Source: Candidatus Omnitrophota bacterium (GTDB lineage Bacteria > Omnitrophota > Gorgyraeia > JAUYCX01). Taken from it: a stretch of 64,000 bases of DNA. Each line of letters opens with the position of its first letter. Position 1 is the first letter of the stretch. The stretch is from positions 1 to 64,000 of the forward strand of contig JAUYCX010000041.1 in the NCBI GenBank assembly GCA_030692045.1. The letters run 5' to 3'. A program made the position numbers and the translations under genes. The notes beneath the pieces are model-generated. The model was not told where the DNA came from. It ran no database searches and saw only the letters and a program-made list of their open reading frames with translations. Positions 28,787 through 33,336 of the stretch are shown piece after piece.

Positions 28787-30166
28787 TTATTTAACTAAAC
28801 TAATACTTTTATCATAATCGCGCTCATCAACCAAAAGTTTTTTTTCTGATAATGGTCCAACCATAAGGGATAAAAGTCTAACATAGCCTTCACAGTCATC
28901 AACTACCACAGAAATACCTTCGCTTTCCAGCCGTGTTTTGATTATCAAAATATCTTTAATATCAGAATGACGAAATACTTCTCTTAAGCTTTTTCTGTTT
29001 TGTAAAGAACTAAGGATTCGCAAAGTTATACCAACTAATAAAACTACTTCAACTCCTGCAAATGGTATGTGAATCTTGAGTAATCTATAAAGAAAAACTG
29101 GCAGGAAAGCAACGCCACATAAGAATATACTCCAAATCAATACAATGTTTCTTGCCATTACACGACCTATATATTCTGCAGCTGTTTTTTCTGTAACCGC
29201 CCCTTCTATAGATAATCTGAATCGCTTCATTTTGGAAATTACTTCTAGTGGATTAAACACTACTACCGTATAAAAATAACTGAAGAAAATAATTAATATG
29301 ACCCAAGAGAGATACGAAATCCATGTTCCGTGAATCAATATAGTTGTTATCCAAGACAGTATGGGACTTGCTTGTTCGCCCCCCAGTGCATTGATTGTCG
29401 CAGGAAACAATAATATAGAATGAGCAAAATAAATTGGAATTATCCCGGGAAGGTTAAGCGGTATTGACATTGTTATGTTCTTTGTCTTCTCGCTGGAGAA
29501 AACTACAGGCACTTTCTTTTCTCGTCTTAACATAAGTATAATTATTACAAGTGATAAGATTAATAACAATCCTGCTATTATCACTTTAAGTTGGTTTAAA
29601 GTAACTAACTCTTCCAAGAACTTTAGCAATGGAGAACGCATTTTAACCAATAATCCTGAAAGAAAAAATAAAGAAATTCCATTGCCTATACCGTGCTTAT
29701 TGATTTGCTCGGCCATCCAGATGATAATTAACACTCCGACAGTTATAGATAACATAGAAACCAATCTGAAAACAACAGTAGGGCTATTAACTAAATAAAC
29801 TCCATCCGCAGTATGTAATTTTTCTATCCACAGAGTAAGAAATAAAGATTGAACCAATCCGAGAAAAATAACTCCTGCATAAATTAATTGATTTATTTTT
29901 CTGATTCCTAGAGTTTCATTTTCTAAAATATTCCTGAGAGAAGGAAGTATAGCGATTAGAAGCATAAAAATAATATGAATAGATACATATGGTACAATAT
30001 CCAAAGAAAAAATGGAAACGCGATGCATAATCTGCTCAAACCCACCCATATCGGGCATAGAAACAAGAGACTTTAGGATGCCGTAATTTACTCCTGGCAC
30101 AGGAATAAATCTACCAATCCAATAAAGGGTAAGGAATAAACATGTTATCAAAATACGCTTCCACAT
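28787..30166 (-). CDS. Solitary SecY paralogue with C-terminal DUF2007-like domain
   Basis: SecY-like multi-TM (GRFIPVPGVNYGILK, KHGIGNGISLFF, NLPGIIPIYFAHSIL, VVVFNPLEV); tail RHSDIKDILIIKTRLESEGISVVVDDCEGY...KLLVDERDYDKSISLV. Confidence 0.8.
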   Translation of the reverse strand: MWKRILITCLFLTLYWIGRFIPVPGVNYGILKSLVSMPDMGGFEQIMHRVSIFSLDIVPYVSIHIIFMLLIAILPSLRNILENETLGIRKINQLIYAGVIFLGLVQSLFLTLWIEKLHTADGVYLVNSPTVVFRLVSMLSITVGVLIIIWMAEQINKHGIGNGISLFFLSGLLVKMRSPLLKFLEELVTLNQLKVIIAGLLLILSLVIIILMLRREKKVPVVFSSEKTKNITMSIPLNLPGIIPIYFAHSILLFPATINALGGEQASPILSWITTILIHGTWISYLSWVILIIFFSYFYTVVVFNPLEVISKMKRFRLSIEGAVTEKTAAEYIGRVMARNIVLIWSIFLCGVAFLPVFLYRLLKIHIPFAGVEVVLLVGITLRILSSLQNRKSLREVFRHSDIKDILIIKTRLESEGISVVVDDCEGYVRLLSLMVGPLSEKKLLVDERDYDKSISLVK

Positions 30167-30319
30167 TGCTATCCTCCTTGTTTCTCCAGTTATAATAAAG
30201 CTCAAATTAGTAAATTAGTTTAATAATAGGGACGTTCTATTTTTTAATGAGGGCGCAACTTATGGAGCGCAAGCGACATAGGTTGTCTGGCCGAATTAAT
30301 CCCGCAGCCTGCTCGAAAA

Positions 30320-30898
30320 TTATCGAAAAGGAATTGGCAAATACCTATATTCCTCTTCTTCAATATTTAATTTATAATATTCATCTATTTTCATCATTAA
30401 TGTAATTTTGTAGATACGATTATCCAGAACTATCCTTGCCTTTTCATTTAATTTAAGCACAACTGTTGCTTTGCTATTCGAAAATTGTCTAATATCTTTA
30501 ATCTTAAAAGCTGAATTACTAGTATTATATTTGACAGAATAACGACTTTGAGTTGGAATTGTAACGTCAGACTTTGAGGACGGTTCAGAAATTCCTGTTA
30601 TTATTGGGTCAACTACAAGTTTTATGTTGGGCCCCTTTTCCTCAACAAATACTAAAGTATGTGCACTTTTCCCAAGTTTAACAATTTGATTATTAATATC
30701 GTTTAATGATATTTTATGCTCATATGATGTGCTTTCCCTTACAAGTGGCCAATTAGTATTTAAAAATAAATACCAGCTAATAGACAACCAAATTATAAAA
30801 ATCCAAATAGGGGATAACAAAAAAATAGATTTTAAGAATCTGCTTGAATCAGATTTTACATTCTTGTTACTTTTTTTCTTAGGTGATCGCTTTGTCAT
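30320..30898 (-). CDS. Hypothetical single-TM protein
   Basis: 192 aa, basic N-terminus then one TM and an exported domain. Confidence 0.6.
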   Translation of the reverse strand: MTKRSPKKKSNKNVKSDSSRFLKSIFLLSPIWIFIIWLSISWYLFLNTNWPLVRESTSYEHKISLNDINNQIVKLGKSAHTLVFVEEKGPNIKLVVDPIITGISEPSSKSDVTIPTQSRYSVKYNTSNSAFKIKDIRQFSNSKATVVLKLNEKARIVLDNRIYKITLMMKIDEYYKLNIEEEEYRYLPIPFR

Positions 30899-30963: not shown

Positions 30964-31884
30964 TCATTCTATCGCTAAATGTTCCTTTAACAGAGATAAT
31001 GCGTCTAATTCAAGTAGAAAAATGTCGGTGTTAATCTTGGACCTAAAGTGTTGTTCCACCCATCTTCGTTTTGATCTCTCTAGTTCATATGCCGTAGCAG
31101 TAATAGTTTTATCTTTCATTAGGCTTACATTTAATCTTTCTAAATTTGTTTCATCAAAACTAAATCCTAAAATATAGATTTTATCTGCCTTTTCTATTAA
31201 TTTATATGCTGCTTGAAATTCTTGACTTTCCCCAACTTCTCTTTCTTCAGTTAGTAATTTAATATTGTCTCGCGCATTTCTAAGCCTAACAAAGCTGTCC
31301 TTCTGGTATAAATACGGAAACCCATTTCCATTCTGCCAAGGTAAGAAATCAAGCTGGCCATAAAGATGAATAATAGGAATATTTTTTATTTTTTCAGCAC
31401 ATTCTTGATAAGATTTGTTAAATTGATTTGCTAGTGCTTCGAAAAGGAATTGCTCTAGCGACCTATCATAATTGAAGGTAATAAATGAAATCTCGTTTTT
31501 ATCAAACTCTTCAAATGAAGATTTGAGTCTATCATACAAATACATATACCAATTATCTCCTGAATCCCTTAATCTTTGATCCCTTTCACATGGAAGAAGA
31601 TAAGAAGCGATCGTCATCTTCCCAATATTCATAAATTCTTTTCTGTGCTCAAGAAAAAAATCAATAGAATAGAGGCTGCTTCTAGAGAACTCTGTAATAA
31701 ATTTATCAACACTTTGGGCATAAAAACTTTCATCTTCTTTTTCATTCACAGGTACTAACGCCTGAACTACGGCTGCTTTTCGAGTTCGTCCACAAATCAA
31801 GTTCCGTAGTTGTATACCTGTAGGATATTCAAATGGAGCACTGGCTCCAGCCCCTAGAATAAATAAAGTTTTTGTTTTTATCAT
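30964..31884 (-). CDS. SIR2-like NAD-binding domain protein
   Basis: FILGAGASAPFEYPTGIQL...FITFNYDRSLEQFL...IIHLYGQLD...IYILGFSFDETN. Confidence 0.7.
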   Translation of the reverse strand: MIKTKTLFILGAGASAPFEYPTGIQLRNLICGRTRKAAVVQALVPVNEKEDESFYAQSVDKFITEFSRSSLYSIDFFLEHRKEFMNIGKMTIASYLLPCERDQRLRDSGDNWYMYLYDRLKSSFEEFDKNEISFITFNYDRSLEQFLFEALANQFNKSYQECAEKIKNIPIIHLYGQLDFLPWQNGNGFPYLYQKDSFVRLRNARDNIKLLTEEREVGESQEFQAAYKLIEKADKIYILGFSFDETNLERLNVSLMKDKTITATAYELERSKRRWVEQHFRSKINTDIFLLELDALSLLKEHLAIE

Positions 31885-32334
31885 CTTTACGCCAGTATCT
31901 AATGAGAAAATTTGGGTCGTTTCTATCCCTGTACTTTCAGTACAGGAATTCCGCATTAGCTTTTAAATTGCTTCGATAGATAATCCTGCGAAGCCAAGCG
32001 CGAAAGCCGCTTGGCGAAGCAGGGCAAAAATTCGAAGCGGCTGGTTTTCCAAACTTTGCACTTTAAACTTTATACTTTAAACTAAAAAGGCAACCCTTCG
32101 ACAAGCTCAGGGTAAACCCCCTACTTTTCGAGAGTTGCCTTAAGAAATTTTACTCATTTTATCACCGCTTTACGAGATCACTATTCCTAATTCATCAATT
32201 GCATCTTTTACAACATCATCCCAACCTTCTAAGCCGAATTCCACACCCTTTTGAACCCTTTCTAATTCGTAGATATTTAATTTTCTCTACTAAAACTAAT
32301 CCAAATCAGGTTTGCGATCAAAAAAATCAAAAAC

Positions 32335-33336
32335 TCAAACAACCTGAAATTCTAATTGAAACTTTTCTTGTTTGCGTCTTTCTCCAAAAAAAAGGTCTGT
32401 TTTCTGTGTTTCATCTAATTCTTTTAGTCTTTTTTCTGCTATCTTTACATACTCACGATTTGAATCTATCCCGATATAGTTTTTACCTAGTTTCTTAGCC
32501 GCAACTGCAGTCGTCCCGCTGCCAACAAACGGATCTAAAACTACCGCACCCTTAGAAAAAGCAGAAAGTTTTATTAAATACTCACAAATAGCTAAGGGCT
32601 TAACTGTCTTATGCGTATTATATTCTCCTTTTTCCTTTTTTGTGGGTTTAGGCAAAAGAAAAGTTCTATCAATAAGTTCATTTATACTTTCCACAGTAAA
32701 AACATTGGAAGGATACATATTATTACCGATTTTTACCTCGGTATTAAATAAACCAACGTCATGTTTCAACATATTATTTAAATAGGTTTGATCAACTGGT
32801 TTCTGCGCCATTGCTATTGGTTCGAAACAAGATTTGATTTGCGGAGTTTTCCAACCATTTAATTTTTCTTTAATCTTATTTTTTGCTCGTTGATCAATCT
32901 CCATCTTGTTTATTAAATGGTCTAAACCCATTGCTTTCGCCTGATTTTGTGTATAAAGCCATATGAAGGCATCTCTTATTTCAAAACCAGCATCATCAAT
33001 TGCGCAGGCCATTCTATGATATAGCCTAGGACTTGAAAAAGAAAAGAAAAAGCCACCTGGCTTCAAGGCCCTGAACACTTCTTCGGATATCTCTAAATAC
33101 CAATTATAAAACCTTTTTCCTTGCTCTCTTTCAAATTTCATTCCCGCAGGTAATGATTTTATTACATATTGATTGCTTTGATTAGAAACTTTGCAGTGAT
33201 CCCAATTATTATCTAGCTTATCCAAAAAATAAGGCGGGTCAGTCAAAACTACATCTATGGAATTGCTCTCAATCTTTGGAAACAATTCCAATGCATCCGC
33301 ACACACAATTTTATTAATAAAATCTTTATTCTTCAT
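32335..33336 (-). CDS. Type II DNA methyltransferase (DPPY class, likely N6-adenine)
   Basis: DVVLTDPPYFLDKLDNNWD then DPFVGSGTTAVAAKKLGKNYIGID. Confidence 0.9.
   Translation of the reverse strand: MKNKDFINKIVCADALELFPKIESNSIDVVLTDPPYFLDKLDNNWDHCKVSNQSNQYVIKSLPAGMKFEREQGKRFYNWYLEISEEVFRALKPGGFFFSFSSPRLYHRMACAIDDAGFEIRDAFIWLYTQNQAKAMGLDHLINKMEIDQRAKNKIKEKLNGWKTPQIKSCFEPIAMAQKPVDQTYLNNMLKHDVGLFNTEVKIGNNMYPSNVFTVESINELIDRTFLLPKPTKKEKGEYNTHKTVKPLAICEYLIKLSAFSKGAVVLDPFVGSGTTAVAAKKLGKNYIGIDSNREYVKIAEKRLKELDETQKTDLFFGERRKQEKFQLEFQVV

Follow-up and report, generated by a model that had tools for sequence, protein, structure and literature searches.

The accessory SecY channels known so far come chiefly from Gram-positive bacteria, each with its own SecA2. 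For DUF2007 (PF09413), the other family considered here, we know of no established function. Among the papers searched, none pairs DUF2007 with SecY, or Omnitrophota with SecY; this is not proof of novelty, but it agrees with a preliminary description of the locus studied here, which knew of no described SecY-DUF2007 system, and the channel appears to be undescribed. In the structure of the E. coli ribosome-SecYEG complex, loop 6/7 of SecY reaches into the exit tunnel, and residue R357 of loop 8/9 forms a stack with 23S A1392 (PMC4737761). With the R357E substitution, SecA ATPase activity is no longer coupled to plug opening (PMC6021171), whereas ribosome-induced gating still took place in planar bilayers (PMC3689939).

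The gene that we analyzed lies at positions 28787..30166 (minus strand) of a 64,000-nucleotide stretch (the window) of contig C76 from a Candidatus Omnitrophota genome. Its reading frame is intact and extends upstream as far as a TTG at 30205. A Shine-Dalgarno-like AAGGAGG, read from the sequence at 30173..30179 (minus strand), lies before the ATG at 30166, and no site of this type precedes the TTG; thus, the coordinates proposed in the preliminary description, which give 459 aa, hold. When the 472-aa frame from 30205 to 28787 was searched, PF00344 matched residues 64 to 397 (167.8 bits, E 5e-49), which places the SecY core at 29015..30016 (minus strand). The AF2 model was good over the core (pLDDT about 76-96 over most blocks), and its best Foldseek matches were solved bacterial SecY structures (best TM 0.7-0.85), as expected of a member of the SecY/Sec61 superfamily. 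PF09413 matched residues 408 to 467 (E 3.5e-6, 27.5 bits against a gathering threshold of 25.7); this DUF2007 domain, at 28805..28984 (minus strand), was also matched by a hidden Markov model (HMM) of stand-alone proteins, described below. It stands where a canonical SecY has its C-terminal tail, as the preliminary description had proposed. We rejected a normal SecY C-terminus as an explanation for the tail, since the short basic end of the YEG/YDG type (e.g., YEGFMKKGRIRGRR) seen in the canonical SecYs inspected is absent. AF2 gave no usable fold for the tail, either alone or within the protein, and no DUF2007 structure turned up when the PDB was searched with the tail sequences. The domain had also been called a sensor, a label whose sole basis is the Pfam family name and which we do not retain. 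The window gene encodes an additional SecY that ends in a DUF2007 domain.

The protein resembles canonical SecY (PF00344, TIGR00967, encoded in the spc operon) in its core, its GIGNG motif region, and a mostly hydrophobic pore ring, but it scores 170 bits against the canonical equivalog TIGR00967, whose cutoff is 253.6. Unlike canonical SecY, it has a shorter loop 6/7, lacks the R357-P-G motif, carries DUF2007 instead of a basic C-tail, and is encoded outside the ribosomal operon. Nor is it a Gram-positive SecY2, as it reaches only 59.7 bits on TIGR02920 (cutoff, 249.6) and 68.2 bits on NF009082 (cutoff, 353). In contrast to the SecA2/SecY2 system, no secA is linked to the window gene, and the sole SecA of the genome is encoded on another contig. 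The domain is homologous to stand-alone DUF2007 proteins (PF09413); here, however, a membrane channel carries it as a C-terminal fusion.

The genome (G000; 2.19 Mb in 119 contigs, with a completeness of 96% and a contamination of 7.5%) encodes a canonical SecY with the usual basic tail inside the ribosomal-protein operon on contig C14 (C14:47949-49208), to which the window protein is 35% identical. The window gene is therefore not the only secY of the genome and was rightly called a paralogue. It was also rightly called solitary: the genome has one secA (on C84) and one secE (on C14), neither of which adjoins the gene, and the ribosomal operon is on a different contig. Contig C76 most likely belongs to this genome. 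Its tetranucleotide usage agrees with that of C14 (r = 0.95; GC 0.384 and 0.385), which makes bin contamination an unlikely source. Agreement is somewhat lower (r about 0.8) in the stretch from 26 to 36 kb, which holds the paralogue, and other parts of the window deviate likewise. The best-scoring named matches to the window protein were SecYs of Candidatus Omnitrophota, and its closest matches, at about 35-37% identity, were canonical SecYs. We found no close relative among viral contigs, and other genome contigs gave SecYs of 27-33% identity with canonical C-termini, a weak negative given that the search favours close relatives. A mobile origin was considered and rejected: the plasmid matches listed were SecYs of less than 31% identity, and the annotated ones examined were one ribosomal-operon secY and two Lactobacillus SecY2s beside secA.

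The genes around the paralogue were inspected as well. Downstream, and a neighbour only, a gene at 27700..28749 (minus strand) fuses a DUF1016 N-terminus (DUF1016_N) to a staphylococcal-nuclease domain, not to the YhcG PDDEXK nuclease that a neighbour at locus L045 carries. Upstream, at 30964-33336, a SIR2-like protein adjoins an N4/N6 DNA methyltransferase, as in a defence island. A pair of genes encoding a 110-aa protein and a 133-aa DUF5674 protein lies at 26682-27412; the same pair is found at L037 (2401-3098), immediately upstream of the SecY paralogue there, and may be a common mobile pair. The single-transmembrane protein encoded upstream of the gene at 30320..30898 (minus strand), once suggested as a partner of the channel, has to be set aside, as a homologue search found none in the 391 other genomes, including all 16 with the same type of SecY.

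A search of 392 Omnitrophota genomes with the window protein found 25 other genomes with two SecY matches, none of them a close relative of the window copy. A complete second SecY, in a frame of 477-562 aa, was present in 11 of the 25, and the remainder mostly held one SecY split over contig ends. In all 11, the extra length lay at the C-terminus, where a domain of about 75-85 residues follows the last helix. Using a profile of the relatives' part after the last SecY helix (A2), we found the SecY-DUF2007 architecture in 17 of the 392 genomes, spread over eight families, of which one belongs to a different class; family f34 alone supplied eight of the carriers. The second SecY of the carriers coexists with a canonical SecY. 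Our distribution sample comprised Omnitrophota, Acidobacteriota, and Hydrogenedentota. The architecture was not detected in the 297 Acidobacteriota and the 68 Hydrogenedentota genomes; the tail profile matched only four Acidobacteriota proteins, all stand-alone (117-152 aa), and nothing in Hydrogenedentota.

To compare the cytosolic face, we scored loops and pore on an alignment to E. coli SecY and measured loop 6/7 between fixed anchors. Loop 6/7 (C4; 29456..29524, minus strand, position from the AF2 model) spans 29 residues in the window protein and 34-37 in canonical SecYs (36 in a comparison over the same anchors); in the relatives it spans 25-32, except at L037, which has 36. In loop 8/9 (C5; 29168..29233, minus strand), the R357 position is R or K in all 41 canonical rows (30/30 from the phylum and 11/11 others). 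It is V in the window protein (codon at 29195-29197), and among 15 relatives there is no R and a single K. P358 of the R357-P-G motif is missing from the window protein and all 15 relatives (16/16), and in family members the DUF2007 domain stands in place of the canonical YEGFMKKG tail. Given the published roles of loop 6/7 and R357, the elements eroded in this family are those that serve ribosome docking and SecA coupling in canonical SecY. Loss of R357 alone leaves ribosome use possible, as in one study ribosome-induced gating was not abolished by R357E (PMC3689939).

The lost R357-P-G motif and shortened loop 6/7 would also suit a SecA-independent insertase for membrane proteins that works with YidC or SecDF, with DUF2007 recruiting nascent membrane proteins or a chaperone. 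We regard this alternative as unlikely, in part because changes at R357 alone do not prove SecA independence. The two Lactobacillus SecY2s illustrate the point: like SecY-DUF2007, they have lost R357 and have a somewhat shorter loop 6/7, yet they adjoin their own SecA. They differ from SecY-DUF2007 in having kept the PG of the loop 8/9 motif and in having no DUF2007 tail. The parallel fits an altered docking face on accessory channels.

The six pore-ring positions are mostly hydrophobic, although four isoleucines of canonical SecY are replaced by V, F, Y, and L in the window protein, and the SecY core is kept across the family. The variable isoleucines, the degenerate docking face, and a hint of signalling that comes from the Pfam name only would be compatible with a regulatory or decoy paralogue, which titrates SecE or SecA, or senses the envelope via DUF2007, and transports no protein. 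We consider such a role quite improbable: the pore and core are preserved, the relatives show constraint on core as well as tail (see below), and one member has a SecE of its own built into the chain, which better suits a working channel.

We next considered whether the tails are homologous. A profile built from the tails of other members, without the window, did not detect the window tail. The relatives' tails mostly fall below the threshold of PF09413, and DUF2007 is the family that they match most often (8/14; best E 1.6e-4). An HMM built from the four stand-alone DUF2007-like proteins of Acidobacteriota matched 16 of the 17 tails. Among these was the window tail, whose score (12.8 bits, E 0.008) exceeded all 2000 shuffles. 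Because the four proteins had been found via the relatives' tails, this test is independent for the window tail only. These profile matches identify the window tail as DUF2007 and link it to the family tails only through the wider DUF2007 family. Since it escapes the profile of the other tails, a separate fusion in the window lineage is possible. In a tree of 57 SecY cores, from which the tails were left out, a branch (96/97) separated the window copy and 15 complete relatives from all canonical SecYs, of this phylum and of others, with the window copy nearest the canonical side. The tree thus favours a single origin of the SecY-DUF2007 family; long branches, with an attraction warning from the tree program, keep this short of proof. 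The window copy resembles the family in being an additional SecY, in the erosion of loops 6/7 and 8/9, in its DUF2007 tail, and in its side of the tree.

Substitution rates were estimated in two pairs of relatives. For L038/L039, dN/dS was 0.13 in the core (dN 0.15, dS 1.15) and 0.10 in the tail (dN 0.10, dS 0.95); for L065/L066, it was 0.09 in the core (dN 0.09, dS 1.00) and 0.16 in the tail (dN 0.10, dS 0.63). These ratios indicate that the SecY core and the DUF2007 tail are both under purifying selection in the two pairs. They bear on the least probable explanation that we weighed, a decaying or transient functionless duplicate with a chance DUF2007 fusion. The scattered occurrence (4% of genomes), rapid evolution, lack of a conserved neighbour, and isolation of the window copy would agree with decay. 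However, the same architecture in eight families, dN/dS values of about 0.1, and an unbroken frame preceded by a good ribosome-binding site make such an origin very improbable. Collectively, these data describe a recurrent, constrained SecY-DUF2007 family and not one odd gene, a stronger finding than the preliminary description claimed.

We then asked which genes accompany family members. No conserved partner gene was found, and the gene neighbourhood varies between families. In most carriers there is a single standard SecA and a single separate SecE, and no secE or secG lay near the gene at the 12 loci first examined, save a fused SecE at L037. There, the chain ends in a SecE domain (PF00584, E 0.009 and 3.4e-4), which makes it a single-chain SecY-DUF2007-SecE. 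One genome that carries SecY-DUF2007 also has a second SecA-like frame (G199:C9:112848-114014; 687 aa, 301 bits). Further SecA_DEAD matches in carriers lie mostly within very long frames, and the incomplete genome G235 has only a SecA fragment. In part of family f34, the gene is near an ABC-2 transporter, a TPR protein, and a cytidylyltransferase. At L038 and L039, which belong to one genus, the order is yajC-secDF-recJ-secY2-(433 aa)-GspD secretin; secY2 begins two bases after recJ at L039, and the 433-aa gene has a weak GspC match at one of the two loci. This linkage to secDF and a secretin was seen in that genus only. The secDF linkage, together with the lack of a dedicated SecA in most carriers, is what else speaks for the insertase, but no YidC linkage was seen among the neighbours scanned.

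As a separate observation, SecA_DEAD (PF07517) matches in Omnitrophota genomes fall within open frames of 5,521 to 45,379 aa at several loci (G074:C1:1265408-1266121 and 1197128-1197727; G007:C89; G278:C31; G384:C129; G170:C93; G051:C6), those in G384 and G170 scoring about 240-250 bits. Giant ORFs are known in Omnitrophota, and the word SecA is absent from the paper that reports them (PMC10066038).

We infer that the window paralogue is most likely a specialised export channel, as first suggested. More specifically, we think it probable, with considerable room for doubt, that SecY-DUF2007 is a functional accessory SecY, an alternative translocon that would forgo the known mode of ribosome docking and in which DUF2007 would serve docking or gating. 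Such a channel would pair with the housekeeping SecE (in one member, a SecE is fused to the chain) and would take selected substrates post-translationally. The drive could come from the single SecA acting through a changed interface, or from the proton motive force with SecDF, and DUF2007 would sit at the cytosolic funnel as a docking or gating module. Substrates are likely to be envelope or extracellular proteins, since in one genus yajC-secDF-recJ precedes the gene and a GspC-like gene and GspD follow it. A bolder version, which we put forward only tentatively, is that the family forms a separate class of bacterial Sec translocon, to date observed in Omnitrophota only, without known ribosome docking, gated by DUF2007, single-chain with SecE in one lineage, and dedicated to envelope or predation cargo.

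A recurring second SecY outside the Gram-positive bacteria, mostly without a second SecA, whose elements for ribosome and SecA coupling are eroded and whose tail has given way to a soluble domain, amounts to a natural test of what SecY can do without, and DUF2007 gains a concrete setting in a membrane channel.
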